From IMG/VR virus record IMGVR_UViG_3300020411_003841, positions 1 through 26,114 of that record: DNA of 26,114 nt; one strand, given 5' to 3'. This stretch comes from a virus. The translations under genes and the position numbers were made by a program. The notes under the pieces were generated by a model that was given only the letters and a program-made list of their open reading frames with translations, was not told the origin of the DNA and made no database searches. Each line of letters starts with the position of its first letter. The stretch's first letter is position 1. Shown here in pieces: positions 42 to 23,260 of this stretch.

Positions 42-905
42 TCACTCTTGCTCTAGCTTGTCAAGAGTCTTTTGTTGAATTACGTTGGTATGGGCAACGC
101 AAAACCCAAAGTCTGATTCGAAAGGCGATTCATAGATTGCATACGTAACATTCTTGAATGCATTTCGTGGTTTATTTTTTAAATGTTTAATAATAGTGCT
201 GTGTAGATCTCCGTCGTTCTCTAACTTATCACCCGATACACAAATATAATAACACACGTCGCGAGAGTTGTCAAGTTCAAAATACCAATTTTCTTCAAGA
301 GTGCGTGGATTAATTCTGCCGATTGAGCGTATTCTTTGTATCTCCGATGGCGTTGTTAAATTACCGATAACGGGGTTTGTGTGGTCAAATAAATTTTTGT
401 AATGTACACTATAATAAATAGTTTGATTGATAGTATCAAAGTACTTTTTAATGGGTATTGAGCCAATTGTTTTCTCGATTTCACAATTGGCAAAAATTGT
501 AAAGGAATTGAACAATCCGGAGCGAGCATATTGTTGCAAAATACCGAATATTGCTCTCTCTTGCAATTTGGGAATACCGATTAAAAGATCTGTATCAGGT
601 TGAATATAAAAAATGTCTATCTTTTTGTCTTTTATGTGCTGGAGAATCGACAAGGTTGCATTAGCTGTGCGCCCCGATCCACACAAAAAAACCTGCACAT
701 GTTGATCAACTGTGCTAAGAAATTTCTTGAGCTTTGGATTTGGTTTGTCATATTCTTCAATATTATCATAATTTTTAATTTTATATTTATACTTAGAAGT
801 TCTAGCAACGTTATCAGACAACGAATATACATTGTATTCCTTATTATTACGGAACTGTTCGACAATATTTTCACCAGCAGTACCGATGCCTACCATAGAA
901 ATCAT
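42..905 (-). CDS. Divergent tubulin/FtsZ-like protein (putative)
   Basis: Protein of 287 aa. Order of elements seen: an N-terminal Rossmann-type glycine loop (VGIGTAGEN, residues 5-13); a strand plus glycine-rich loop FLCGSGRTAN (73-82) where FtsZ/tubulin carry GGGTGTG; a helix; a strand ending in QPD (about 97-104); a helix; and a strand ending in FAN (138-140) followed by a helix. This order and spacing resemble an FtsZ/tubulin GTPase domain, but the T4-loop signature is degenerate, so GTP hydrolysis is uncertain. The start chosen is ATG at 905: it overlaps the polymerase stop as ATGA and has AAAGG ten bases upstream. An open frame reaches 956, but its first 17 codons lie inside the polymerase gene. 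It is the last gene of the unit and probably translationally coupled to the polymerase. Alternative: another Rossmann-like phage protein. Confidence 0.55.
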   Translation of the reverse strand: MISMVGIGTAGENIVEQFRNNKEYNVYSLSDNVARTSKYKYKIKNYDNIEEYDKPNPKLKKFLSTVDQHVQVFLCGSGRTANATLSILQHIKDKKIDIFYIQPDTDLLIGIPKLQERAIFGILQQYARSGLFNSFTIFANCEIEKTIGSIPIKKYFDTINQTIYYSVHYKNLFDHTNPVIGNLTTPSEIQRIRSIGRINPRTLEENWYFELDNSRDVCYYICVSGDKLENDGDLHSTIIKHLKNKPRNAFKNVTYAIYESPFESDFGFCVAHTNVIQQKTLDKLEQE

Positions 906-10943: not shown

Positions 10944-10951
10944 TAAATAGT
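10944..10951 (-). promoter_or_regulatory. ACTATTTA box, putative late promoter for the tape measure/baseplate unit
   Basis: Exact ACTATTTA on the minus strand, 8 bases after the U tract of the preceding terminator and 22 bases before the GTG start of the tape measure gene. It is the same octamer in the same relative position as five other intergenic copies in this window. Confidence 0.65.
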
Positions 10952-10958
10952 TTTATAC

Positions 10959-10987
10959 AAAAAAACAAAGGGGTTTAACCCCCTTTG
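10959..10987 (-). terminator. Rho-independent terminator after the tail tube/gp26-like/gp51-like unit
   Basis: On the minus strand an 8-bp stem CAAAGGGG / CCCCTTTG with a 6-base loop is followed by seven U residues. The TAA stop of the small gp51-like frame lies inside the loop. It separates this unit from the tape measure promoter box. Confidence 0.85.
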
Positions 10988-11217
10988 AATGAATCCGGTA
11001 TTGAAGGTGCATTATGTGGTGTTAGTGTATGTGTAGAGGAATTACGCCCACCATTCCCCTTAGATGCATCTTCTATCGCTTTTTTCTCCATCTCAAGCTG
11101 CGCTATTAATCTTTGCGTAAACCAGTTTCTTAGACCTATTGGCAGATTGTAGGCTTCGCTGAATGACCAACCACCTGAGTATTTCAAAAAGAAAAACTGC
11201 TCATATACATTTTCCAT
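10975..11217 (-). CDS. Small gp51-like tail/baseplate assembly protein, probably a frameshift extension of the gp26-like gene
   Basis: From the ATG at 11217 this frame encodes 80 aa: MENVYEQF, then a GGWSFSEAYNLPIGLRNWF core, a charged helix, and a disordered Ser/Thr/Pro tail. The core is of the small-chaperone type found between tail tube and tape measure genes. In T4 the gene after 26 is 51, a baseplate-hub assembly factor. No ribosome binding site precedes the ATG at 11217, or the earlier in-frame candidates at 11277 (ATG) and 11298 (TTG). The frame runs open back through the T7 run at 11236-11242, where a +1 or -2 shift from the gp26-like frame would give a 362-aa fusion. I infer that much or all of its expression is as that fusion; independent initiation remains possible. 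Confidence 0.65.
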   Translation of the reverse strand: MENVYEQFFFLKYSGGWSFSEAYNLPIGLRNWFTQRLIAQLEMEKKAIEDASKGNGGRNSSTHTLTPHNAPSIPDSFKGG

Positions 11218-11221
11218 GTAT

Positions 11222-12064
11222 TCATCGGTCAGGCCAAAAAAAGTCCGCAGAGAGCGGCACCTCCATGTCCTGTTCATGATTACATGCAGAACATTCAAAA
11301 TGTTGTGTTAAATCAACATTAGGTGCTGTTTGGCGATATGCCAATCTGAGATGTCTTGAGTCAACCGATGGCAGGTTCTCTACCAAGTAGTTAATCGCTT
11401 GAGCAGATGAGTCTCCATTAGCAGACACAAGCATGGCTGAAAGCTGTCTAGTGACATTGCGTTCAATTTTTTGCTTTTTGTCCATCTCTGCACCGGAAGT
11501 AATCTTTTTCTCATCATAACCGTTTAAAAGTCTAAATGTGGCTGTAATACCGGTGCGAGGTAAAACAACATCAAAAGTGCCGTCGTTGTTGCTCGTAACG
11601 TCAATGTTGTCATCGGTGCCGGAATATATCTCAGCGGCATTTAAATCAAATGAATATTCTTGCGCCTCACCGCATGCAGGACAGTTTACTTTGGTTGAAT
11701 AAATGTTGCCATAACCAGAAACTCTGGTTGCAACTATAACAGCATTGCGATCTCCAATTAGCAAAGAATCAGGATCAATTGATTTATCACTAATAACACT
11801 CGCCAATACTCTATCCAGCGCTACTCCTTTCTTAAGCAATGTGCGCGAAGTAAGCATATCTTCTTCCTTAGCAGTCATTTGCTTGATTTCAACAGAAGTC
11901 TCACCACGCAATGGGTGTCCTTCTGGATAATGTTTGCCTTCAGATGGCAATTCAACAAATTCAGTCGGGACGACGAACGAAAACCCACCCTCATTCATAG
12001 TTTGTGGCGGGGGTGTCGTATCGGGCTGTTGAACTCCACCAAGACGATCTTGGTTTCTAGACAA
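11222..12064 (-). CDS. gp26: gp26-like baseplate/tail-assembly protein with CxxC zinc knuckles
   Basis: Protein of 280 aa. A disordered Pro/Gln N-terminus is followed by a VVPTEFVELPS strand (31-41), a helix MTAKEEDML (63-71), and a YG-rich strand leading to CPAC (128-131). A second knuckle, CSAC (258-261), lies near the end; together the four cysteines probably bind zinc. This layout is that of the T4 gp26-like family (baseplate hub subunit/assembly factor) in marine T4-like phages. Start is TTG at 12064, with AGAGGTGA just upstream. The gene ends with a T7 run four codons before its stop, then runs into an overlapping +1 frame with no ribosome binding site. That suggests the protein exists in a short form and an extended form, as tail-assembly chaperones do. 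Confidence 0.75.
   Translation of the reverse strand: MSRNQDRLGGVQQPDTTPPPQTMNEGGFSFVVPTEFVELPSEGKHYPEGHPLRGETSVEIKQMTAKEEDMLTSRTLLKKGVALDRVLASVISDKSIDPDSLLIGDRNAVIVATRVSGYGNIYSTKVNCPACGEAQEYSFDLNAAEIYSGTDDNIDVTSNNDGTFDVVLPRTGITATFRLLNGYDEKKITSGAEMDKKQKIERNVTRQLSAMLVSANGDSSAQAINYLVENLPSVDSRHLRLAYRQTAPNVDLTQHFECSACNHEQDMEVPLSADFFWPDR
11236..11242 (-). promoter_or_regulatory. T7 slippery run, candidate programmed frameshift site
   Basis: On the minus strand the gp26-like frame reads GAC TTT TTT TGG with a stop four codons later. A peptidyl tRNA on the second TTT can re-pair perfectly one base forward (+1) or two bases back (-2). Either way it enters the frame that encodes the small gp51-like protein. 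A miscalled homopolymer length in the assembly would give the same appearance. Confidence 0.55.
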
Positions 12065-12096
12065 TGTTCACCTCTCGTTTAATTAATTGTCGTACT

Positions 12097-12690
12097 TTAA
12101 GCTCCAGACTTAAAGAATTCTTTCTGACCTGTGCCAGCCTTAGCTTCGGATGGGTTGTCAGTTACAACTATAGCCCAATCGTACATAACCTCAAGCGTGG
12201 TAACAGTTAATTCGTCGTCACCGTATGCCAAAGTGCCAAGTTGGAAATCTTTAATAAATCCATTCCAAAGAGTCCAAGTTTCAAGTGGGTTACCGTCAGA
12301 ATCAATTTGAGTAATTGTAATCTGACCCAAAGCTTTGGCTGCTTTGGCCTTAGAAATTGAGCCTAATGAATTTGAGTTAGCAGGAGGCTTATAGCCAGAT
12401 TGTTGAAGAATATCAGAAAATGTAGCTGTAACGTCAGGCTGCGCAGGGTCAACCAATTCTATTGTAACAGTATTCCACGTAACCGCACCCGGATAATAAA
12501 ACTTGTGATTCAAATAAGCATGTTCAACGTTTTCTACTGTAAAACTAGGCTTTGTTACACTTTTTGCATACCATGCTAGCGCTCCAGAGTCACCCTCAAT
12601 TCCATCGAATTCTACCTTAAATCTAAAATTTCTTTTCGGGTCCTTTAACGGGGCTCCCTCGGCTCTAAAGTTTGTTGACCAAAACGGCAT
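12097..12690 (-). CDS. gp19: Tail tube protein, gp19-like
   Basis: Protein of 197 aa, close to the 163 aa of T4 gp19. It has the family layout: an N-terminal NFRFKVEF strand, a KSVTKPSF segment, a pair of strands around HKFYYPGAVTWNTVTIELVD, then a helix, a LWNGFIKDFQLG strand, and a final TVTTLEVMYDWAIV strand. Hexamers of this protein form the rigid inner tube of the contractile tail. It lies directly after the sheath gene, as in T4. Start ATG at 12690 has AGGAG ten bases upstream. A one-mismatch promoter box sits 26 bases before it. Confidence 0.92.
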   Translation of the reverse strand: MPFWSTNFRAEGAPLKDPKRNFRFKVEFDGIEGDSGALAWYAKSVTKPSFTVENVEHAYLNHKFYYPGAVTWNTVTIELVDPAQPDVTATFSDILQQSGYKPPANSNSLGSISKAKAAKALGQITITQIDSDGNPLETWTLWNGFIKDFQLGTLAYGDDELTVTTLEVMYDWAIVVTDNPSEAKAGTGQKEFFKSGA

Positions 12691-12716
12691 TTTTTATGTT
12701 CTCCTGTTTTCTAAAG

Positions 12717-12724
12717 TATATAGT
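12717..12724 (-). promoter_or_regulatory. Degenerate ACTATTTA-type box before the tail tube gene
   Basis: Minus strand reads ACTATATA, one mismatch to the octamer found before the other units, 26 bases before the tail tube ATG. Position and orientation fit a weaker or variant late promoter. Confidence 0.4.
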
Positions 12725-12727
12725 GAT

Positions 12728-12744
12728 GGGGAAATTATTTCCCC
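12728..12744 (-). other. GC-capped hairpin between tail sheath and tail tube genes
   Basis: A 7-bp stem (GGGGAAA / TTTCCCC) with a 3-base loop lies 5 bases past the sheath stop codon and just before the promoter-like box. On the minus strand it lacks a U tract, so it may be an mRNA 3'-end or processing hairpin rather than a full terminator. Confidence 0.45.
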
Positions 12745-12749
12745 TTATT

Positions 12750-15700
12750 TTAATCATCAAATGACGCACCAGTTCTGGCAATCACAAAGTCAATTGCAAT
12801 GAATTCGATAGCACGCGCTGGCTTAATCATGATTTTTGCATATAAGACGTTTTGATCAATCAAATCAGGTGTTGTAGTTGTTTCATCAAGAATCAACTTA
12901 TATTCGGTAATACCGAATCTAGTTTGGACATTTGCCAAGAATGGCTCAATTAATCCCTTAAATCTATTCCAAGTTTGTTGTACGTTTTGTTCAAACAAAA
13001 TTTGTGTCGAAAGAATTGAAATTTGCTTCTTCATGAAGATGACCAATCTACGTACGTTAATTCTATCGAGTGCAGAACGTCGTTCTTGAAGTGTCTTTTG
13101 ACCAAACAATACAATGCCAGTGCTAGGGAAGGATGCAATTGGATTAATGTTGTAGTCGTATAGTGTGTCGCGATCCTTGGATGTCAATCTCTCGGTAATT
13201 CCTGTAATTGGAATTCCAGCAGCACCTTCGGTAAGTCCGCCGCGGTTAAATCCGGCCGGGGCGAACCAAACATCAGATTTAGCTTCAGAACTTGCAAGAA
13301 CACCCATCATCGCAACAGATGGCGGAATCCAAAGTAGTTGTCCAGTTTCTTCATCGCGGGTTTGAACCCATGGGTAGAAAGTGGCACCGTACGATGAATC
13401 AATTCTTCTGTCGCTGAGATCCTGTGCTGCACCTAGTGGTGTAGTACCACGTGTTTCAGTGACGTCACTCTTGTAAGACTCATGTGCCGGAATGTATACA
13501 TTTGGAAGATCAATAATTCCAAGCGCATCACCTCTTTCTTCACAGACATCAACAATGTGTCCAGTGAGGCTAGGCAACGTGAGACCGGGAACAGACAGAA
13601 TGTTCATATCAACAAACTCAGGATCAGTCACAGTGTCAATCGCACGTCGAAGTGTGTGGAACACATAGCTGTTCTTTTCAGTAGATGAGCCATCGGTCAT
13701 AAGTGAGTTAGCAAAAGGATCAGGAATTGTAATATCCACTCCGTCAAAGCCACCCCAGAAAGGCGCCGTGAAGCGATCATAGCCGGCATTCAGAAGAGAT
13801 GTATACGAACCAGAAGTTTTTGATGTTCCTGCTTTTCTAGAGCCAGACTCGTATGTATAAATGCCACTAGCTTCCTTGATATCATCCATTGAGAAGATAT
13901 ATGACCATGCGTTAACACCAGAAACCGTATACTCGCCGGTCGTTGGATCATCAGGAAATCCGCTATACCACAGTCTTCCATAATCCTGCAACCCTCTAAC
14001 ACCACGTGTCGAAGTTTGTGTTCGAGAACTAGCAAGCCCAAAATAAGCATTCGTGGGGTCTTTTAAGCCACCATCAGAAGCGTTGACCCTAAGCGAAGCC
14101 GTAGGGAAAAGTAGTGTTCCACTCATGTACGCTTGTAAGTGGTTTGCTTCATCACCCGTTGAACCAGAGCACAACGGAAAATCGTAACCATATTTTTGGG
14201 GAAGTCGTCCGCCGGCGCTCGAACCGGTCATAACGTTGGCCTTATTAAGTAATACAAAGGAGTCAAGGTATTGACGGGTTGAAATCGAGCCTGTGAAAGT
14301 CAGCCCTTTAGGAACGGGTGGACCATAATAACCAAATGGGAGCAGACTTGCTTCGGTGGCGCCGGCTTTAACATCTTCATTTAACTCAACATATACGTAT
14401 GTCGACATGTTTGGATAGTCGCCATATTCTCTAAGGCGCTTATCGGCTTGAGACCATTGCTGGTATTTTGTTCCGATTTTGCGTCCAATAAAGTTTGGTG
14501 ATCTTGGATCTAAGTTTAGATTATCGAACCTTTCGAGAACTTGCACTTTTTGATCAGTATCGGTAATACTTCTAATGACCACAGAGAAAGATCCGTAATC
14601 ACTGTTCTTTGAAGTAGAGGCTTTAATTCTTTCAATAGAAACTTTTGCATTGTTGCTAAGCCACGCACCGTGTCCGCGCCCTTTAAGACGGAAAAGTTTT
14701 TGCACATTGTTCCATGGCTCATAGCTAGCTGCGGGTCCTAAATGTTGTCCGATAAACCAACCGGCGCGGGCTTCAGTAGCTGCTTGACCCTTCATTTGTG
14801 CAGGGTTTGCAGTCGACGTCGTACCAGCGACACCACCACCGAGACCAAGAGGGTATATGACACCAACCGCTCCACCGCTAGCTTTGCCTGCTGCCCTTAG
14901 TGACTGCTCATAGGTCTCTCCGAGCCAATAATCTCTTTTAAGTCTATTTGGGAAATAATTTGACGCGGTTGTATTGTTGAGTTGAGGATTGGTATTAAAA
15001 CGTTTGCGCGCAAAGTTTTCGCTACCATCATCAAAATTGAATCTAACTTTTTCTATTTTGGAGCCTGAAATTACAACAGTAAATAATCCGTCTGAATCAG
15101 TCGAGATAGGCATACCCATTCCCGCGGCTTCTAATTGGGTTGCGGTCTTATCACCGAGTCCAGGATAAAGAGTACCGCTGAGTTGTATCTCTGCCTTGGT
15201 TGAAGCATCACCGCCGGGGTTGTTCAAATACCAAATAGCGGCTAAGTGCCCGCGTCCGAGTTGCTGTGCCGCCTCGGTACCAGTCGTCAAGCCTGAACCA
15301 GAAGGGAAAACAAATAAGCCAAATGCGCCTCCATTTGTAGCGCCGCGGGTATTAACCGTATTATCGGCAGTTGGAATTGCATCAGTTTTCCAGCCGGCTT
15401 GTCCTGCGGCTGTACCATCGTTATCTGAGTGCTGTTGTCCTAAAAGACGAATGTATGTGAGAGGTGCCACATTCGCACGAAGAAAAGCTTTTGCAGCGTA
15501 CGTACCATACATTGGTGATTGATAGTTACCTTCGCGATAGATATCACCACCGCCGGCTCCCGGTACAGTGTTGCCGAATGATCTAACAAAATCTGAATAT
15601 GACCCCACCTTAATAGGCTGCATGGCCAAACCTCTTTCTGAACGACCAATTACAACTGGTCCAATATTTTCCGCATCGGCAGGAATAAAGGAATCATCTA

Positions 15701-15752
15701 TCTCGTTGATAAACACTCCGGGCGATACAAATTTAAAATTCTTAACTGACAT
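12750..15752 (-). CDS. gp18: Tail sheath protein, gp18-like
   Basis: Protein of 1000 aa. The N-terminus (KFVSPGVFINEIDDS) is the typical sheath start that forms the handshake strands. The C-terminal domain is strongly conserved: WIPPSVAMMGVLA; a FAPAGFNRG motif; a FGQKTLQ segment; NVRRLVIFMKKQI (about residue 897 on), a long helix with FEQN; and a closing strand pair. T4 gp18 has 659 aa, so this protein carries several hundred extra residues, mostly in the middle (about 130-600), probably surface domains on the contracted and extended sheath. I chose ATG at 15752, which has GAGAGGGA six bases upstream; the frame stays open to a TTG at 15800 without a ribosome binding site. It forms its own unit after an ACTATTTA box. 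Confidence 0.95.
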   Translation of the reverse strand: MSVKNFKFVSPGVFINEIDDSFIPADAENIGPVVIGRSERGLAMQPIKVGSYSDFVRSFGNTVPGAGGGDIYREGNYQSPMYGTYAAKAFLRANVAPLTYIRLLGQQHSDNDGTAAGQAGWKTDAIPTADNTVNTRGATNGGAFGLFVFPSGSGLTTGTEAAQQLGRGHLAAIWYLNNPGGDASTKAEIQLSGTLYPGLGDKTATQLEAAGMGMPISTDSDGLFTVVISGSKIEKVRFNFDDGSENFARKRFNTNPQLNNTTASNYFPNRLKRDYWLGETYEQSLRAAGKASGGAVGVIYPLGLGGGVAGTTSTANPAQMKGQAATEARAGWFIGQHLGPAASYEPWNNVQKLFRLKGRGHGAWLSNNAKVSIERIKASTSKNSDYGSFSVVIRSITDTDQKVQVLERFDNLNLDPRSPNFIGRKIGTKYQQWSQADKRLREYGDYPNMSTYVYVELNEDVKAGATEASLLPFGYYGPPVPKGLTFTGSISTRQYLDSFVLLNKANVMTGSSAGGRLPQKYGYDFPLCSGSTGDEANHLQAYMSGTLLFPTASLRVNASDGGLKDPTNAYFGLASSRTQTSTRGVRGLQDYGRLWYSGFPDDPTTGEYTVSGVNAWSYIFSMDDIKEASGIYTYESGSRKAGTSKTSGSYTSLLNAGYDRFTAPFWGGFDGVDITIPDPFANSLMTDGSSTEKNSYVFHTLRRAIDTVTDPEFVDMNILSVPGLTLPSLTGHIVDVCEERGDALGIIDLPNVYIPAHESYKSDVTETRGTTPLGAAQDLSDRRIDSSYGATFYPWVQTRDEETGQLLWIPPSVAMMGVLASSEAKSDVWFAPAGFNRGGLTEGAAGIPITGITERLTSKDRDTLYDYNINPIASFPSTGIVLFGQKTLQERRSALDRINVRRLVIFMKKQISILSTQILFEQNVQQTWNRFKGLIEPFLANVQTRFGITEYKLILDETTTTPDLIDQNVLYAKIMIKPARAIEFIAIDFVIARTGASFDD

Positions 15753-15803
15753 TATGTGTCCCTCTCTATAGTATAATGCTCTAAATGCTTGCGCAATCAA
15801 AAA

Positions 15804-15811
15804 TAAATAGT
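15804..15811 (-). promoter_or_regulatory. ACTATTTA box, putative late promoter for tail sheath
   Basis: Exact octamer on the minus strand, 51 bases before the sheath ATG, in the gap left by the gp15-like gene and just after its 3' hairpin. Confidence 0.65.
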
Positions 15812-15823
15812 ATTTTTAATCCC

Positions 15824-15844
15824 AAACACACTTCAGGAAGTGTT
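15824..15844 (-). terminator. Hairpin after the gp15-like gene, possible terminator
   Basis: Directly after the TAA stop, arms ACACTT (15828-15833) and AAGTGT (15838-15843) form a 6-bp stem with a 4-base loop. On the minus strand it is followed by GTTTGGGATT, a poor U tract. Weak terminator or processing hairpin. Confidence 0.4.
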
Positions 15845-16750
15845 TTAAGAGCCAAAAAAATCTGGATCGCCGGGTCGAGGGACGGTTTCGCGTGGATATG
15901 AAACTTCTACAAAATTCTCATCGACCCTAACAATCGGTCGGTCGTCGTTTTTGCCTTCACCCATTAAGTAACCAAGAACTCTAAGATTTATCTCTGACGT
16001 AAACATTCTAATATCTTCGTTCATGTTAGATACGTTATTATTATGTGTAAAACTTTGATCAACAAACGCTTCATACAAATGTCCATTTCTTCTCATTACA
16101 AAAGCGTTAATTTGCCCTGTTTTCGTAATAAACGGCGACATGAGATCATTCATTTGTTGTTGATATTCAGTTTTTATAATAATCTTATAATCAACATTAA
16201 TATAAACAGGTATTGGAATAGACAATGTTTGAACAATAATCCTTTTATTTTTTCTTTTAGTATTAAGCTGGTTTGCCGGCAAATTACTTCTATTTCTGTT
16301 CGCTTGAGCAACTGCAAAATTACGAGTCTTATCTTGCTTAATGCGGCGGCCTATAACCATTCTTCCAGTTGTTCCGTTAAGTGCTCCATTTTTATTTTTT
16401 GGTTCACCGGGCGCAGAATAGAGGTGTGCTTGAAAACCACCTTTGCGAGCAGGATCTTTTGCAATATTCGTGCGCTCAATACTTACGATCGGCAAAGTGA
16501 GGGAACCATTGTCATCCCTTAGCTCTTTTTTGTTTTTAATTTGATATGCTCTCTCTGGAGTTTGCCACAAAACCGGCACATTAGTAAAACCTTGATTTGT
16601 CATGGCCATCAAAGCTAAGTCTTCCTTCATCCAAGACATAACAGAGTAATCAATATTCTCAATATCAGAAGCCAGCATCCCAACTTCTTTTAAAGTTAAA
16701 CTATCAGCCTCATCGGGAATTTGGGCAAAGTCAAAATTATCAGGTAGCAT
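15845..16750 (-). CDS. gp15: Tail terminator/sheath stabiliser, gp15-like (putative)
   Basis: Protein of 301 aa. Helical N-terminus (1-50), then VPVLWQTPERAYQI (58-71) and LPIVSIER (86-93), reminiscent of the 'VP..YGP...LPRMSFEI' block of gp15. Next come a basic Asn/Arg-rich middle, a strand/helix segment IIIKTEYQQQMNDLMSPFI (about 186-206), and a disordered Pro-rich C-terminus. T4 gp15 (272 aa) caps the tail tube and sheath and meets the neck. Position between the gp14-like gene and the sheath gene agrees. Start ATG at 16750 has AAAGGGA upstream and overlaps the previous gene by 11 bases; an open frame extends to 16900, but those codons lie inside that gene. The match to gp15 is by pattern and place, not close identity. 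Confidence 0.68.
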   Translation of the reverse strand: MLPDNFDFAQIPDEADSLTLKEVGMLASDIENIDYSVMSWMKEDLALMAMTNQGFTNVPVLWQTPERAYQIKNKKELRDDNGSLTLPIVSIERTNIAKDPARKGGFQAHLYSAPGEPKNKNGALNGTTGRMVIGRRIKQDKTRNFAVAQANRNRSNLPANQLNTKRKNKRIIVQTLSIPIPVYINVDYKIIIKTEYQQQMNDLMSPFITKTGQINAFVMRRNGHLYEAFVDQSFTHNNNVSNMNEDIRMFTSEINLRVLGYLMGEGKNDDRPIVRVDENFVEVSYPRETVPRPGDPDFFGS

Positions 16751-17234
16751 CGAATAATCCCTTTCTTGCGCGCTTGCAGGTTGCAGCGATCTCAAACGTT
16801 TCGTCGACTTGACCAAAAAGCTTGCGAGGCTGTGAAAGCTTGGTAATCTCATAGTAAGTATCACCATATAACACAAAATCGCCTTCTCTAACATACACAT
16901 CCTGATCTTCTTCTAATCTACGTTTATGAAACTGCACTGTGATTTGTGATACCTTATCTATTCCTGCATTTTCCATATAGTGTGTAGATTCGTCATCAAA
17001 CTTAACAAGAGCGTAAACTCGTATTGGTGGTAAGAAGTTTTTTTTCATGGCTTCGCCATACATGTCGTGAAATTGAGTTGTTGTTAGATCAATTGAATAA
17101 TATAATATTTGTTGTCCAATAATCTTTTCAACAAGCTCGTCGTTGACTTGCTTAACGAGATCTCGCTCTTTTTTACCTAAAAACAAAGGCGGGGGAGGGG
17201 CGCTAGGTTTTGACCAGTTGTTATCGTCTGACAT
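16740..17234 (-). CDS. gp14: Neck/head-completion protein, gp14-like (putative)
   Basis: Protein of 164 aa. After a Pro-rich start comes a helix with KKERDLVKQVNDELVEKIIGQ, then LYYSIDLTTTQFHDMYGEA and LPPIRVYALV, and a C-terminal beta domain with EGDFVLYGDTYYEITKL and a KLFGQVDETFEI strand. This last domain resembles the closing domain of T4 gp14-type head-completion proteins, which bind gp13 in the neck. T4 gp14 is longer (256 aa). Start ATG at 17234 has AGGAG seven bases upstream; it begins 10 bases after the gp13-like stop and overlaps the gp15-like gene by 11 bases. The assignment rests mainly on gene order. Confidence 0.65.
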   Translation of the reverse strand: MSDDNNWSKPSAPPPPLFLGKKERDLVKQVNDELVEKIIGQQILYYSIDLTTTQFHDMYGEAMKKNFLPPIRVYALVKFDDESTHYMENAGIDKVSQITVQFHKRRLEEDQDVYVREGDFVLYGDTYYEITKLSQPRKLFGQVDETFEIAATCKRARKGLFDAT

Positions 17235-17244
17235 TTACTCTCTC

Positions 17245-18522
17245 CTACCCCACAAATATTGGCAATGGTGATCTTCTTAAAGTTTCCTCCGCTGCGGTAG
17301 CCTTTTCTTGATCTTTCTTAGCCAATTCCGGATATTCAACTTCTTTTAGTACTTCTGCTAGCTTATCTTTAAGCTGTTGCTGCTCTTCTTTTGCTTGACT
17401 AAGCAATTCTGAGTGGTTTAAAGTCACACTTTCACCGGGAATTGGAATTGTTGTAAATTTACCACGAATTTGACCCAACATTTCTTTACAAAGCGACAAA
17501 GCATATTTTCTAATCCACTGTTTACCTATAGCGTTAATATTTTCGTACGGAATGTTGCCAAACGGCAGTGTATTAAGGTTATTGATGCCCTCAATACCGG
17601 TGTCAGTATCGCCTTCTTCGTCAAAAACACTTGATTTAATTCTAAACTTGAACCAAACTCTATCAAGATAGCCAGCAAAGTTATCAGTTCCTCTTGGAGT
17701 CGGATATAGTCTTAATTTATTATTGATAATCTCGTATGAATAGTGCGAAACTCTAGTATATAATGAATCTTCGTACATAATAGCTTGTAGTTTGTTCTGC
17801 CAAGTTGGTACAATCTCAAAAGTCGTATCGTCAGCGTATTGTCCATACGTGTTATAATTGCCAACTACACCAATTCCGCCATAATACCCATAAAAACGCC
17901 ACATTGCAATTGGTGAGCGATAAAAAACTCTATCTACAATGATTCTTTTATCTGTTACCTTCCCTGCATATGGCACTGCTGTGCCATCATCATTGACGCC
18001 TGAAGCGGAAGAGCTGGATATAATTGTTTGCAAGTCATAATCTTGCTGATTTTTGACAGTGGTGAAGGATGCCGAATATATTGTAGTTGTCCCACCAACT
18101 CCCGCCATTGTGGACATGCCATCAGCAATTTTATTAGTATAATTCGCCTCGACACGTGGAAATTTAAGGCTTGCATTTGCTGGCCCTGATGTGCGTTGTC
18201 CTAAGTGATTAAATGTGCCCGTAACATCCCCAAGCGCATCTGATATAACGTTTTTGCCTTGATGAAGATTAAATATGTATGAATATTCGAGTACAGCTTC
18301 TTCATAAGCAGCATAAACATTCGCTGGTGTAAGCTCAATATCAACAACATCGCCACCAAGCTTCTTATAAACATATGCTACTTGGGAAGCAGCGCCTGAA
18401 CGGAATGCTGCTGAGCCCGTGTACATTCCAAACGGCACAGCGTCTGAAACTAACTCCGCTGAACCGGTTGAAGTTAGAATTATTGCACTTGTTTGTGATT
18501 TCGGACTTAAGTTTGTAGGCAC
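17245..18522 (-). CDS. gp13: Neck protein, gp13-like
   Basis: Protein of 425 aa; T4 gp13 is 309 aa. The early helix VYAAYEEAVLEYSYIFNLHQ (69-88) and the late block WIRKYALSLCKEMLGQIRGK (about 331-351) followed by IPGESVTLNHSELL and a charged helix are the recognisable gp13 signatures. Gp13 and gp14 form the neck ring that seals the filled head and receives the tail. The region around 95-230 (Gly/Ser/Tyr-rich, with YYGGIGVVGNYN) accounts for the extra length. The start is GTG at 18522 with AGGAGG eight bases upstream. An ACTATTTA box ends only 19 bases before the start, giving a very short leader. Confidence 0.78.
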   Translation of the reverse strand: MPTNLSPKSQTSAIILTSTGSAELVSDAVPFGMYTGSAAFRSGAASQVAYVYKKLGGDVVDIELTPANVYAAYEEAVLEYSYIFNLHQGKNVISDALGDVTGTFNHLGQRTSGPANASLKFPRVEANYTNKIADGMSTMAGVGGTTTIYSASFTTVKNQQDYDLQTIISSSSASGVNDDGTAVPYAGKVTDKRIIVDRVFYRSPIAMWRFYGYYGGIGVVGNYNTYGQYADDTTFEIVPTWQNKLQAIMYEDSLYTRVSHYSYEIINNKLRLYPTPRGTDNFAGYLDRVWFKFRIKSSVFDEEGDTDTGIEGINNLNTLPFGNIPYENINAIGKQWIRKYALSLCKEMLGQIRGKFTTIPIPGESVTLNHSELLSQAKEEQQQLKDKLAEVLKEVEYPELAKKDQEKATAAEETLRRSPLPIFVG

Positions 18523-18541
18523 GCACGGACCCTCCTATTGG

Positions 18542-18549
18542 TAAATAGT
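18542..18549 (-). promoter_or_regulatory. ACTATTTA box, putative late promoter for the neck unit
   Basis: Exact octamer on the minus strand, 19 bases before the GTG start of the gp13-like gene, with the AGGAGG ribosome binding site beginning 5 bases past it. If transcription starts some 6 bases after the box, as in T4 late promoters, the mRNA would begin at or inside the ribosome binding site. Confidence 0.6.
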
Positions 18550-18585
18550 TGATCATAACCAAAGATATAGACTTATGTAATATAT

Positions 18586-18903
18586 TTACGAAGTCTTCTT
18601 AGTTGACTTGGTTTTTCTGGTCTTTGGGGTCGATGTTGCTTTTTTGGCTTTAGTTGTTTTCGCTGTTTTTGCTTTAATAACTGGCTTAGTAGTTGTTTTA
18701 ACAGTTTTGGCGGATTCAGCCTTTGTTTCTGCAATAACTGTTTCGGCCTTGCCGTCGTATGATGGAATAATTTTTGTGGGTGTAGTTTCAACAGTTTCCG
18801 AAACGGATTGTTCGTTTGTAATTGTAGTTTCCACAGTCTTGGCAAGCTGTTCTTGTTTGGCTCTTGCTTTAAGTTTTAAAGCTAATCTTCTACGTGGGTT
18901 CAT
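18586..18903 (-). CDS. Lys/Ala/Thr-rich basic protein, histone-H1-tail-like
   Basis: Protein of 105 aa. It begins with a basic stretch (MNPRRRLALKLKARAKQEQL), has a Thr/Glu-rich middle, then a C-terminal half of repeating Lys-Thr/Ala-Lys units (about 60-105). Such low-complexity basic tails occur in histone H1-like and HU-tail proteins and bind DNA or RNA non-specifically; a packaged internal head protein or DNA-condensing role is an inference. Start ATG at 18903 has GAGGA six bases upstream and an ACTATTTA box 29 bases upstream, so it is a genuine, separately expressed late gene. Its place between a capsid accessory gene and the neck genes fits a head-associated role. No close family recognised. 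Confidence 0.75.
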   Translation of the reverse strand: MNPRRRLALKLKARAKQEQLAKTVETTITNEQSVSETVETTPTKIIPSYDGKAETVIAETKAESAKTVKTTTKPVIKAKTAKTTKAKKATSTPKTRKTKSTKKTS

Positions 18904-18932
18904 AATATGTCCTCTTTGTTAAACCTGTAACA

Positions 18933-18940
18933 TAAATAGT
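18933..18940 (-). promoter_or_regulatory. ACTATTTA box, putative late promoter for the basic protein
   Basis: Exact octamer on the minus strand, 29 bases before the ATG at 18903 and downstream of the terminator of the preceding gene. Confidence 0.65.
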
Positions 18941-19004
18941 TACTAAACAATAAAAGCGAAAATCTGGAAAAATTGGCGCCGAAATTTTTTGGCAGATCGC
19001 CATT

Positions 19005-19037
19005 TTTAAAAACAAAAACCCCCTCAAAAAGAGGGGG
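19005..19037 (-). terminator. Rho-independent terminator after the 185-aa capsid-associated gene
   Basis: Minus strand: 7-bp stem CCCCCTC / GAGGGGG with a 5-base T loop, then TTTTTGTTTTT. It lies 30 bases past the gene's stop. A second AT-rich inverted repeat around GGCGCC (18970-19004) follows and could act as backup. Confidence 0.88.
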
Positions 19038-19067
19038 CAAAACATAAAAGATATATTTTGAATTTAA

Positions 19068-19625
19068 TTAAGCATTTACAGCAGTAGCAGCAAAGTGTGT
19101 AGCTAAAGTTGCTGTATCAACATTACCAATAAGGTTACCTCTGTAAATAATTACATTTGCAGCACCGGTGTACCAGAAATCTAATATTGTGCCGGCAGCT
19201 CCGCCAGCTTTACCAGCAGCATCGACATCAAGTTCGACTCTGTGGTTTTCTGTTCCGACTGCTGATACCGCAATCGCAGTATTAGTAGAGCAGTGACCCG
19301 TAGCAGTTCCATCGGAATGAGCCGAAGCACCACCCACAAGGAAACTGTCAACAACACCAACTAAAGCAGTAGCTGCTGGAGCAACGGCGAAAATTACCTG
19401 AATGTGCATACCTGCATTTGCAGCGGTTGCCTCTGGTAATCGGATATATTTTCCGTCAGCTATAGCAGCATTAACCAAAATAGTTGTGTTACCGGTAAGA
19501 TCACTAAAATCTTGATCCGTAGTAGTTGTAACGTACTTAGTTTGATATCTTAAGCCGGATAATTCTCTTTTTAAGTTTTCGATTAGGGCCTCGGTTCTAG
19601 CGAGACCAACTCTTTTACTTCCCAT
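19068..19625 (-). CDS. Probable capsid-associated or other structural protein, unknown function
   Basis: Protein of 185 aa. A short basic helix (MGSKRVGLARTEALIENLKREL, 1-22) leads into a Gly/Ala/Thr/Val-rich beta domain with several strands and small-residue loops, ending in an Ala-rich tail. No enzyme motif or membrane segment. The gene follows the major capsid gene and has its own promoter box, hairpin leader and strong terminator, which suggests strong, separately tuned expression. A decoration or surface protein of the head would fit, but I do not recognise a named family. Start ATG at 19625 has GGAGGG nine bases upstream. Confidence 0.7.
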   Translation of the reverse strand: MGSKRVGLARTEALIENLKRELSGLRYQTKYVTTTTDQDFSDLTGNTTILVNAAIADGKYIRLPEATAANAGMHIQVIFAVAPAATALVGVVDSFLVGGASAHSDGTATGHCSTNTAIAVSAVGTENHRVELDVDAAGKAGGAAGTILDFWYTGAANVIIYRGNLIGNVDTATLATHFAATAVNA

Positions 19626-19674
19626 AGTTTAAAACCCTCCATTTTTAATCATGTTAAAAACATAATAGGACAAC

Positions 19675-19695
19675 GACAGAGTATAGTTCTCTGTC
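19675..19695 (-). promoter_or_regulatory. 5' leader stem-loop of the 185-aa gene
   Basis: Minus strand GACAGAG / CTCTGTC, a perfect 7-bp stem with a 7-base loop, begins 7 bases past the ACTATTTA box. If the box works like a T4 late promoter, the transcript would start almost exactly at this hairpin, which could protect its 5' end. Confidence 0.5.
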
Positions 19696-19701
19696 ACGCC
19701 A

Positions 19702-19709
19702 TAAATAGT
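19702..19709 (-). promoter_or_regulatory. ACTATTTA box, putative late promoter for the 185-aa gene
   Basis: Exact octamer on the minus strand, 76 bases before the ATG and directly after the U-rich tail of the capsid-gene terminator. Confidence 0.65.
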
Positions 19710-19715
19710 TTAGGT

Positions 19716-19750
19716 ATAAAAGAAGACCCCCACCTTTTTCAAGGTGGGGG
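19716..19750 (-). terminator. Strong rho-independent terminator after the major capsid gene
   Basis: Minus strand: 10-bp perfect stem CCCCCACCTT / AAGGTGGGGG with a GAAA tetraloop, then TCTTCTTTTAT. The GNRA loop and long GC stem make it the most stable terminator in the window. It isolates the highly expressed capsid unit from the genes that follow. Confidence 0.92.
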
Positions 19751-19807
19751 CTTTCCGTGTCACGTTTATCGTGGTTTTTTACTCAATATATGTCAAATGT
19801 TTATATA

Positions 19808-21703
19808 TTAAGATGTAGCTCCAGATTCACCTAACAGTCCGCGACAAATTACTAGTCCGTACATATCAGGACGTACCATCTTCTTCGCATAACGAGTCAT
19901 CACACCCTTGCGAGGCACGAAGTCTTCTGGTCCGAAGATTGTAGGAGTGGTTTGCAGTGGTACATATGGTGCGTACACATATCCGCTTTCAAGGAAAGAG
20001 GAACCGCGACGTCCAACAAGGACCACGTTGCGGAGGAAGTAAGGATCGACAATAACATCGAACTTCTTGCTCAGCGAACCAACATTGACAGCACCAACAG
20101 TACCAGTCTCAGCATCAGCAGTTACGTTAGCACGATATCCAGCGGTGAACTCAAGAATGTTAGCGACTTCAGGTCCAACGACGATGAAGTTAGCGCCACC
20201 ACGAAGAGTCTTGCGGTGAATTTGTGCAGACACATCGTTGATAGTTTCAACAAGAGTCTCGTACCACTCAGATACAGTACCGGTGAAGTCAGGAGCAGCA
20301 GAGCTAGCACCAACTTCGGCGCCAGTCGACTTATCCAAGAAAAGACCGGGCGAGCGCGACCAGTAATAGGTAGCTGCTGTAGCACCGTTAACAAGGTCAG
20401 CAACAATCTCACGATCGATTTCGAGAGCAATTTGCTCCGAAAGGATGCTGGTCAACTCAACTTCTGCGTCAAGGTTGTGGTAGGCGTTAAGGTCTTGACC
20501 TAACTCCGGTGTCCACTTGGCCTTGAGCTTCTTAGTTTGAGCGGTAACAGCAATGCTGTCGACCTTGATGTCGATCTCGGGGATATCTGGGTTTCCTTCA
20601 AGTCCCCAAACAGTAGTACCCTGAATGGAACCAATTCCACCAGCGGTAGAGTTTTCGAAGTCATCAGTCTGTGGGAAAGAAAGCTTAAGACCATGTGCAC
20701 TAGATGCAGTATAATCAGTAAGCGGTACTCTACCACCATACTCTCCGGTAGCAGCGCGAACTTCGTCCGCACCAGTAGAACCAGTTTGTCCAACAATCGT
20801 AAGCAGAACCATCTTACCGTGACGGTCTTGAGAACCAACGGAAGTGTCACCAGTATCTGGAAGAAGTCGTGACAAGCGGCGGACCTGCTGGGCGCCCTTT
20901 GTGCAGATAATGTCATCTGCGCCACTACCCATACCAGAGAAACCACTGTTAGCTTCTGCGGATGATGTGATAGCAGAAAGGTTATCAAGATCAAGCTGAT
21001 CCATCAATGATGCCGAAACGCGAATAATTGCATATGCATGCGTTGCAGTAGCAAAAGTCTTGTCATTAGCACCAAGAGAAAGTAAATCAGGGTCATACTG
21101 AATGTTCTTTCTGTCTTGCTCGGTCATTGCTCTAGAAATACTAGAAGCAGTAACGAAAGTAGCTCTCAAGTGTGTCGAGCCAGATGGAGAACCATATGAG
21201 TAACCGCGGGCAGATGCGCGAGGACCAGAAAGGTCACCACCAGCAGCGCTTACGAGGTCGACACCACCAGTAATTTGTGCACCGACACGATCAGTACCGT
21301 AAATTGACTGACCGGCAACGTTACCAAGCTTACCAGTTTGGGTTGTTGCACCACCAAGATCTTCCGAGAACGTAAAATCAAGGAAGAAAATGAGTCCACT
21401 TGGGAGGCTCATTGGCTGAACAGAAACAAGATCGTTTGCGATCAAGCCTGCAAAAACACGACGGACAATGGGGAAAGCGACTGCTGCAAAACCTTGCACA
21501 TCACTGGCGGCCATCGAGGTTGCTTCGCGAAGAAGCTCCTTAGCTTGGTTTTCAAGAAGACGAGCCATACCGTTCTTGGTACGTTCGTTATCGAGACCTT
21601 CTAAGAGTCCGGTTTTTTCCCACTTTGATAATAGGGCGTGACCTTCAGCACGCATATCACGATTGACAACCCCTTCTGTCAATCTTTCGATAATACTAGA
21701 CAT
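19808..21703 (-). CDS. gp23: Major capsid protein, gp23-like
   Basis: Protein of 631 aa (T4 gp23: 521). The N-terminal block LLENQAKELLREA (49-61), then FAAVAFPIVRRVFAGLIANDLVSVQPM (72-98) and the PSGLIFFLDF strand, are hallmark gp23 sequence. The C-terminal half has the typical EVELTSILSEQIALEIDREIV helix region and a closing PYVPLQTTP segment. A prohead-protease site is likely after E60 (LxE|A), which would remove a 60-residue propeptide, as gp21 does after residue 65 in T4 gp23. About 110 extra residues, mostly between 140 and 340, probably form an enlarged insertion domain on the capsid surface. Start ATG at 21703 has AAGGAG ten bases upstream. It shares a transcript with the scaffold gene, 19 bases away. 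Confidence 0.96.
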   Translation of the reverse strand: MSSIIERLTEGVVNRDMRAEGHALLSKWEKTGLLEGLDNERTKNGMARLLENQAKELLREATSMAASDVQGFAAVAFPIVRRVFAGLIANDLVSVQPMSLPSGLIFFLDFTFSEDLGGATTQTGKLGNVAGQSIYGTDRVGAQITGGVDLVSAAGGDLSGPRASARGYSYGSPSGSTHLRATFVTASSISRAMTEQDRKNIQYDPDLLSLGANDKTFATATHAYAIIRVSASLMDQLDLDNLSAITSSAEANSGFSGMGSGADDIICTKGAQQVRRLSRLLPDTGDTSVGSQDRHGKMVLLTIVGQTGSTGADEVRAATGEYGGRVPLTDYTASSAHGLKLSFPQTDDFENSTAGGIGSIQGTTVWGLEGNPDIPEIDIKVDSIAVTAQTKKLKAKWTPELGQDLNAYHNLDAEVELTSILSEQIALEIDREIVADLVNGATAATYYWSRSPGLFLDKSTGAEVGASSAAPDFTGTVSEWYETLVETINDVSAQIHRKTLRGGANFIVVGPEVANILEFTAGYRANVTADAETGTVGAVNVGSLSKKFDVIVDPYFLRNVVLVGRRGSSFLESGYVYAPYVPLQTTPTIFGPEDFVPRKGVMTRYAKKMVRPDMYGLVICRGLLGESGATS

Positions 21704-21722
21704 TTTTAATTTTCTCCTTATA

Positions 21723-23168
21723 TTAATTAATACCTGCTAGTTTCTTCATTCTATTAGCCAAGGGATCGACCTTAACGGTTTCTTTACGGCTACTAGCGCG
21801 AAGAATGGAAGAGCGACGATTGATTGTTTCGCTCAGTGATTGCGGTCCACGCGTAGGTGTGGACTCCACTGTGCTTTGAAGCGTTTCAAATATTGTCTTT
21901 GCTTCCGGAACAGAACCAGCTTTAGAAATCGCTTCGGCAACTTTATCTTTTTGCCGCTCATTTAAGGAGGTATTTCTTAACACACGGTTCGTGTATAATA
22001 AACGAGCATTTGAAAGATTAACGTCAGTGACGCTTTCCTTTAACTGCTCAACTACGTTTTCGTAGTCTTGAAGCTTCTCTTTGAGTTGGTTATTTTCGAA
22101 AACCAATTCTTCTTGAGCTTGTTTCAAATCTTCTAATTCTTTCTGTGGGTCGGTGTCCGTTCTGTCGGCCATTCCACGACCCAAAGTAGAATCTTGTTCA
22201 AGTGATGTAGATCTGCGGGCTGCGAGTTCTTTTTCCATCTCGTACATCTTATCTTCGGCTCTGCGTCCTGCCCAGCCTGAGAGGTCAGCGCCCATATCTA
22301 CGGTAAGTTTTTCCATAACTGCATCGATAAGTGAATCTGCGTCAATTTCTTCCCTCTGCATTCTTGTGCGCATACGAGCCTTAGTGTTTTGACCATATTT
22401 TCTGGATGGGTCGACGTCATCTTTTCGAGCTTGTTGTTGAGCAGCCTCCTTTTCTTTGGCTGCTTTTTCTTTGGCACGGGCTGATGCTACGTCATCCGGC
22501 GAGCGTGCAGATCCGTGACCGCGGAACTCGCTTTGACGCATATAATAATCGCGCATTTCATCGTCCATAGACTCTTCAAATTCTTCTTCAGATTCATCTA
22601 GGTCAAAGTTTTCCATGACGGCAGCAACAAGCGCAGAAAGGTCAAGTTCTTCGTCAACCTTATCATCGGCATCATCATTGCTATCGTCATCGCTATCAGA
22701 GTCACCTCTAGCTCCACCCTGCTCTGCGCCTAAATCAGCACGTGTAAATTCTTCGTTGTCGTCAAGTCCTGCCTCGACACTATCGGTACCCTGAGTTTTG
22801 CCATCGCCTAATTTTTCTTCAATTGAATCAGAGTCAAGTTCTTCTTCAAGCTTTTGCAGCGCCTCTGCCAACTCGTCAAACTTAATTTCAACTTCTTGTA
22901 CATCATCTTCGTCAGGACATGGGCAAACATCGTCACCATCAGTTGCAGCAAGGGGTACATCGACATCCGCATCAGCAACAGCAGGGGCGCCCATTGGATC
23001 GCCACCCAAGCCGCCGCCGAGCCCCAATTCATCTTGTTCTAATAATCTATTCAAAGTTTCCTTAACCTCATCCGAGTATTTTTCAACAATAGTGGATTCG
23101 GCGTTTTTTAAGGCCGCCTCCTTAAGCGCCTTGGCGTCGACAAATGCTTGCTCAAGTAAAGATGACAT
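21723..23168 (-). CDS. Prohead core/scaffold protein, gp22-like position
   Basis: Protein of 481 aa, very acidic. It has an N-terminal helix (MSSLLEQAFVDAKALKEAAL), a Gly/Asp-rich linker with CPCP (about 81-85), long Asp/Glu/Ser-rich stretches (110-210), and a basic/acidic helical part. A coiled coil follows (about 335-385; ELEDLKQAQEELVFENNQLKEKL core), and the protein ends in RMKKLAGI, an ending I associate with scaffold-type proteins of T4-like marine phages. It lies 19 bases upstream of the major capsid gene, where T4 has gene 22, the main prohead core protein. Several LxE motifs could be protease sites. Start ATG at 23168 has AGGAG eight bases upstream and a promoter box 34 bases upstream. 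Sequence match to T4 gp22 itself is not visible; the role is inferred. Confidence 0.72.
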   Translation of the reverse strand: MSSLLEQAFVDAKALKEAALKNAESTIVEKYSDEVKETLNRLLEQDELGLGGGLGGDPMGAPAVADADVDVPLAATDGDDVCPCPDEDDVQEVEIKFDELAEALQKLEEELDSDSIEEKLGDGKTQGTDSVEAGLDDNEEFTRADLGAEQGGARGDSDSDDDSNDDADDKVDEELDLSALVAAVMENFDLDESEEEFEESMDDEMRDYYMRQSEFRGHGSARSPDDVASARAKEKAAKEKEAAQQQARKDDVDPSRKYGQNTKARMRTRMQREEIDADSLIDAVMEKLTVDMGADLSGWAGRRAEDKMYEMEKELAARRSTSLEQDSTLGRGMADRTDTDPQKELEDLKQAQEELVFENNQLKEKLQDYENVVEQLKESVTDVNLSNARLLYTNRVLRNTSLNERQKDKVAEAISKAGSVPEAKTIFETLQSTVESTPTRGPQSLSETINRRSSILRASSRKETVKVDPLANRMKKLAGIN

Positions 23169-23202
23169 GTATTAAACTCCTAAATAAAACAGTAATTCAC
23201 TG

Positions 23203-23210
23203 TAAATAGT
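23203..23210 (-). promoter_or_regulatory. ACTATTTA box, putative late promoter for scaffold and capsid genes
   Basis: Exact octamer on the minus strand, 34 bases before the scaffold ATG. A short inverted repeat (ACAGT / ACTGT) overlaps its downstream edge. Confidence 0.65.
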
Positions 23211-23260
23211 GTTGAGCATTACAAAAGTCAGTTTTGTGGTAGTAGATTATCAAAACTAGC

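Follow-up and report, generated by a model that had tools for sequence, protein, structure and literature searches.

A probable shifted late-promoter box ahead of virion-gene units in marine Far-T4 phages and its most likely reader, a diverged gp55 homologue

Late transcription in phage T4 starts at promoters carrying the box TATAAATA and involves gp55, gp33 and gp45 (PMC2988020, PMC7892883). In T4 gp55, pockets for individual bases of this box have been described, with N13 and H95 for base −9 and T99 for base −8, while base −12 stacks on Y97 (PMC7892883). Variants of the box have been reported: the late promoter of Aeromonas phage Aeh1 has a/gC at −13/−12, its sole departure from the T4 consensus as reported (PMC2988020), and that of cyanophage S-PM2 is NATAAATA (PMC2984593). 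As for the Far-T4 phages, none of T4's transcription-control genes was found in their contigs by Roux et al. in 2015 (PMC4360716).

The window analyzed here, 26,114 bases in length, is one whole IMG/VR contig with all its genes on the minus strand. These include genes for a gp23-type major capsid protein (19808..21703; PF07068, 6.5e-72), a tail sheath (12750..15752, with its ATG at 15752; phrog_23, 8e-64), a tail tube (12097..12690; phrog_4542, 1.9e-27), an Ad2-like head-tail adaptor protein (17245..18522; phrog_211, 2.7e-12), baseplate hub and wedge proteins, and a fragment of a family-A DNA polymerase. The capsid protein is 42–45% identical to those of the nearest named phages (Flavobacterium phage immuto, Microcystis phage Mel-JY01, and Rhodothermus phage RM378), and 80 environmental contigs reach 56–87% capsid identity to the window. 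On the basis of this gene content and these relatives, the window was placed among the Far-T4 phages. The window being the entire contig, the genome-wide motif test was run on relatives, using a set of 81 loci (0.93 Mb) and a set of 11 long contigs (66–191 kb), in which genes were called as simple longest ORFs with start refinement. In the literature searched, which is a part of the whole, no paper was found on the promoter or the sigma family described below, or on the promoters of immuto or Mel-JY01.

Several other features of the contig and its relatives were observed. The tail sheath of the window has about 1000 residues, far more than the 496 positions of the phrog_23 profile that it matched, and contains a large insertion. 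The family-A DNA polymerase seems to be split, the window gene (902–2083) corresponding to the C-terminal polymerase part alone; in immuto, two separate family-A polymerase genes are annotated far apart (1–1326 and 37854–40187). Among relatives from named bacterial assemblies, the closest (L164; capsid identity 58%) is binned in the Acidiferrobacteraceae MAG RS826, which gives a weak hint of the host. In a single-cell contig of Prochlorococcus sp. AG-409-L21 (L176), a gp55-like gene was found some 7 kb from a capsid gene of Far-T4 type (41% identity); the presence of these genes in this assembly may reflect either a host link or a co-sorted phage.

The original prediction placed the octamer ACTATTTA on the minus strand in six intergenic gaps, each before the first gene of a unit, and all six positions were found to be correct. 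The copy at 23203..23210 lies 34 bases before ORF 21723–23168, a gene that precedes the one for the major capsid protein and is also boxed in the relatives G018 and G030. The copies at 19702..19709 and 18933..18940 lie 76 bases before ORF 19068–19625 and 29 bases before ORF 18586–18903, respectively, and that at 18542..18549 lies 19 bases before the adaptor gene. The remaining two are found 51 bases before the sheath ATG (15804..15811) and 21 bases before ORF 8244–10922 (10944..10951), a gene that is boxed in most relatives (39/45, as counted in the stretch that served as control for the gene before it). All these distances, measured from ORF starts, fall in the predicted range of 19–76 bases. 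As also predicted, a one-mismatch copy, ACTATATA, is located on the minus strand at 12717..12724, 26 bases before the tail tube gene, and two copies closely follow terminators, starting at 10951 and 19709, each 7 bases past a T-rich tail. The first of these minus-strand terminators is an AAAGGGG/CCCCTTT hairpin (10967..10986) with its T-tail at 10959–10965; the second, the hairpin of the capsid unit (19727..19750), has its tail at 19717–19726, and its 3' end doubles as the sequence GGTCTT (19723–19728) of an upstream element described below.

In total, the window contains seven exact copies of ACTATTTA on the minus strand and none on the plus strand, and none of 100 dinucleotide shuffles, for which 1.39 copies were expected, reached seven. 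The seventh copy (minus strand, 415..422), overlooked in the original prediction, lies within ORF 42–956 and is probably due to chance. Intergenic DNA makes up only 828 bases (3.2%) of the window, yet it holds six of the seven copies (binomial P 7e-9), and 2000 dinucleotide shuffles of the gaps gave a mean of 0.09 copies and a maximum of 2. This enrichment was specific to the exact octamer: one-mismatch forms were seen 34 times against 33.9 expected, and the signal inside the window is therefore carried only by ACTATTTA itself. The proposed preference for A or C just before the box held in the window (A, A, A, A, C, and T), but this position is not conserved among relatives.

The orientation expected of a promoter signal was clearly observed among the 81 loci, where ACTATTTA occurs 210 times in sense and never in antisense in intergenic regions. 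Octamer counting ranked it first upstream of genes, with 196 occurrences compared to 0 in the reverse complement. Only the fifth base of the box is free, as ACTAATTA, ACTACTTA, and ACTAGTTA were found in sense/antisense ratios of 59/5, 38/0, and 9/1, respectively; of the other single changes, T as the first base is tolerated best (21/2), and nearly all the rest are near background. The true consensus is thus ACTANTTA rather than a fixed octamer. In the 11 long contigs, 153 of the 162 intergenic sites combine the sense orientation with a distance of no more than 130 bases from a start. Box sites are related by descent, so that these counts are not independent events, a caveat that affects to a lesser extent the orientation bias within a single genome (47 versus 7 in G018). 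The T4 box TATAAATA was also considered as the promoter of this clade and was rejected, as it is found 5 times in sense and 41 times in antisense in the intergenic regions of the same 81 loci.

The presence of the box was also compared among orthologous genes. It was found before all 52 sheath orthologues and 75 of the 89 adaptor orthologues, and ACTANTTA precedes 37 of the 51 tail tube genes. By contrast, and as anticipated for a signal confined to the first gene of a unit, genes inside tightly packed units lack it: no box was found for the 49 orthologues of the baseplate hub gene, an internal gene, or for the 73 orthologues of ORF 16740–17234, and only 2 of the 50 major capsid genes have a box of their own. 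The major capsid gene is presumably co-transcribed with ORF 21723–23168 and seems to rely on the box of this preceding gene.

In G018, phoH, the sheath and adaptor genes, and the gene preceding that of the capsid protein are boxed; in G030, so is the tube gene. Orientation, position, and conservation thus fit a promoter, and the gene content fits a late class. These sequence comparisons suggest that ACTANTTA, placed before virion-gene units, is almost certainly a late-gene switch. However, the DnaG primase gene of G018 and phoH, which do not encode virion proteins, are also boxed, and the class may therefore be middle-plus-late.

A second type of promoter was detected in upstream regions devoid of the box, where the pattern TTGACA-N16-18-TAnnnT occurs 65 times, compared to 4 times in the reverse complement and 1.2 in shuffles. 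In G018, it precedes the genes for DnaB helicase, SSB, and GroEL, and clusters of small ORFs. In immuto, virion genes are preceded by ACTATTTA, and early-type genes by TTG-N17-21-TATATTTAG, which we take to resemble the housekeeping promoters of Bacteroidota. Copies of ACTATTTA in immuto, which infects Flavobacterium sp. LMO8, are located at 117560, 120551, 122433, 145300, and 153782. The region between 60 and 76 kb of immuto (MW353176.1) contains more than 12 near-identical early-type promoters, AGTTGc-N17-21-TATATTTAGGTAT, before small genes. The occurrence of one box alongside two different host-type promoters indicates that the box is independent of the host promoter type, and points to a phage-encoded reader.

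The window contig stops short of its own gp55 gene, and the gp55 homologue is thus known from relatives alone. It was reached through a weak match of immuto to the late-sigma family (E 0.008). An initial set of marine contigs gave no match to profiles phrog_234 and phrog_12791, probably because these contigs end before the gp55 region. A gp55-like family of about 230 residues was found in every near-complete marine genome tested and in the cultured phages immuto (gp152, listed as hypothetical) and Mel-JY01. Taken singly, 31 of 32 family members match phrog_234 (late sigma), at best with 1.5e-8, and the family profile aligns with T4-type gp55 over 109 columns (probability 95.4, E 1.9e-8), beginning at the N-terminal N-Y-V-N-N-K segment. 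Both region-2 homology and the conserved N-terminal aromatic segment, by which membership of the gp55 family was judged, are therefore present. A profile search of the PDB returned only SigA, SigA1, and gp55, all weakly. The AlphaFold model (mean pLDDT 80.5, pTM 0.44) is helical in its N-terminal half and has, at the C-terminus, a helical domain whose spacing resembles that of a helix-turn-helix; in a Foldseek search with this model, sigma factors ranked first, none of them significantly. The C-terminal half is unalignable to gp55 and ends in an RxRYxEFKxxWD-type sequence, and in sequence comparison the family lacks the C-terminal hydrophobic/acidic clamp-binding tail. The C-terminal domain was considered as a sigma region 4, but such homology was unsupported.

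The residues of the marine family aligned with N13/H95, T99, and Y97 of T4 gp55 are K/F, S, and Y, respectively. Compared to T4, the box is free at −9 and changes from A to T at −8 and from A to C at −12, so that two of the three changes coincide with changed pockets. The conservation of Y97 in the −12 pocket despite the change from A to C counts against the pocket match. Nevertheless, the presence of a diverged gp55 homologue in every near-complete relative examined supports the original view that a shifted late box implies a diverged late sigma factor, and the reader of ACTANTTA is most likely such a diverged, mostly unannotated version. The ECF-like sigma factor annotated in RM378 was also considered as a reader and discarded, as phmmer found no homologue in marine contigs; its PHROG merely revealed the stand-alone region-4 proteins described below.

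In G018 (33940–34632) and G030 (41501–42196), the gp55-like gene belongs to a long series of genes with the same direction that follows the boxed phoH gene, and no promoter of either class was found just upstream of it in these two contigs. Early expression of the gp55 homologue is not accounted for by such an arrangement, which counts against the explanation that we prefer.

Alternatively, the phage might have borrowed the box from its host, either as the −10 element of an alternative sigma factor or as a weak housekeeping promoter. Use of host sigma factors is frequent among phages, and the same genomes hold host-type TTGACA/TAnnnT promoters. This explanation nevertheless appears highly improbable. 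The same box is shared by phages whose early promoters are of different host types, with TTGACA/TAnnnT for the marine clade and TTG-N19-TATATTTAG for the Flavobacterium phage; the box is a poor match to TATAAT; and all near-complete phage genomes tested encode a homologue of the late sigma.

Alignment of the sites on the box revealed a purine peak 6–7 bases past it (13–14 bases after its first base) and AT-rich DNA just downstream. Assuming that transcription starts at this purine, the box would extend from about −13 to −6, its position in T4; transcripts from T4-type late promoters begin 5–7 bases past the box. A fixed distance of this kind bears on a reading of the box as an RNA-level signal (a processing site, a leader, or a translation element) or as part of a terminator. 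The location of the box 19–76 bases before start codons and the several copies found directly after terminator hairpins are in agreement with such a role. However, the spacing between box and start codon is highly variable among relatives (5–83 bases), whereas the purine peak keeps its distance from the box; most sites (166/238) score low for a terminator hairpin; and the box marks units rather than genes, internal genes with their own starts being devoid of it. We therefore consider a signal of this type to be slightly less probable still than a borrowed host promoter. Recognition by a phage-encoded RNA polymerase is the least probable of all, as single-subunit (PF00940) or multisubunit (PF00562) polymerases gave no match above cut-off in 9 long genomes, which have a gp55 homologue in their place, even if some large phages bring their own RNA polymerases and promoters, as described for AR9 (PMC5312081).

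We thus regard it as very probable that ACTANTTA is the −10-type late-promoter box of the marine Far-T4 clade, read by a diverged gp55 homologue on the host RNA polymerase. According to this model, the phage-encoded homologue would bind the host enzyme and read the box at about −13 to −6, and transcription would start 6–7 bases downstream, at a purine, before the first gene of a virion unit and presumably late in infection.

A second element, GCnTTT, was found 13 bases upstream of the box, at −19 to −14 relative to it. Because many boxes follow terminators, themselves a source of G and T, near-duplicate and hairpin-bearing sites were dropped; the element kept the same fixed position in the remaining 166 sites, and its interpretation as a mere by-product of terminators was rejected. 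In 132 low-structure sites, the enrichment was highly significant for G at −19 (P 6e-14) and T at −15 (P 6e-22), and the joint G...TT pattern was found 33 times at −19, 21 times at −20, and 0–12 times at the remaining offsets. In the window, two of the six boxes have G at −19 together with TT at −15/−14; before the box at 23203..23210, the element, as defined on the relatives, reads GACTTT (minus strand, 23224..23229). A clear upstream element was not found in immuto. In the marine clade, it would be located around −32 to −27 from the start, and would help to position the polymerase.

Eleven marine contigs encode a stand-alone sigma-region-4 protein about 80 residues long, the N-terminus of which contains Cys in most members; searches of immuto and Mel-JY01 gave no homologue. 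Three members score above the gathering cut-off of PF04545 (E 2e-10 to 3e-8). In G018 (117165–117438), G003 (16343–16751), and G015 (54260–54545), its gene is the last of an upstream unit, and a late box comes directly after it. As the protein and the upstream element both occur in the marine clade, and immuto yielded neither the protein nor a clear element, the small protein may read the element. The gp45 clamp was searched for with phrog_223 in 9 long genomes, giving no match at E ≤ 1, a threshold that a strongly diverged clamp could escape. Tentatively, and with somewhat more doubt than belief, we propose a split sigma working without a sliding clamp, in which the gp55-like protein would read ACTANTTA, and the small Cys-containing protein or the C-terminal helical domain of the gp55 homologue would sit on the beta flap, read GCnTTT near −30, and replace the mobile enhancer formed by gp33 and gp45 in T4. 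The co-activator gp33 is itself a poorly conserved protein.

Far-T4 phages are common in the sea and in fresh water. The present analysis provides them with a probable late promoter and with a candidate for their late sigma factor that has mostly gone unannotated so far. Late units become predictable in hundreds of metagenomic contigs, and the joint change of sigma pockets and promoter bases offers a natural experiment. If the clamp is truly absent, the T4-style link between replication and late transcription must work differently in these phages.

Among the known promoters, the T4 middle promoter has a MotA box near −30, 12–13 bases from its −10 box. It shares with the marine clade a short GC- and T-rich element about 30 bases before the start, but the partner box of the clade, unlike that of T4 middle promoters, is not TATAAT. 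The phages immuto and Mel-JY01 have the same gp55-like family, with ACTATTTA before virion genes in the former and ATATTTAT in the latter, which looks like an intermediate form. Cyanophages also have a gp55-type late class and a −10-type box only, but their box retains AAATA, and they retain gp33 and gp45 (PMC2984593). Aeh1, going by its published description, and the Far-T4 box both have AC at −13/−12, and the latter is also altered at −9 and −8; since AC was already reported for Aeh1, the real departure from T4-type boxes lies at −9/−8. The late promoter of T4 itself (TATAAATA, used with gp55, gp33, and gp45; PMC2988020, PMC7892883) and that of the clade both consist of a single 8-base −10-type box at about −13 to −6, followed by AT-rich DNA and located ahead of virion genes, with a phage sigma of the gp55 family. 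They share T-11, A-10, T-7, and A-6, whereas the clade has A-13, C-12, any base at −9, and T-8 where T4 has T, A, A, and A. The clade also differs by its fixed upstream element in the −35 region, its stand-alone region-4 protein, the lack of a detected gp45 clamp in 9 long genomes, and a gp55 homologue that ends in a helical domain rather than in the clamp-binding tail of T4. The Far-T4 box thus adds a new variant to the late promoters of T4 type, and, as judged from the genomes compared, the fixed GCnTTT, the stand-alone region-4 protein, and the absence of a detectable gp45 clamp appear to be new relative to T4-type systems.
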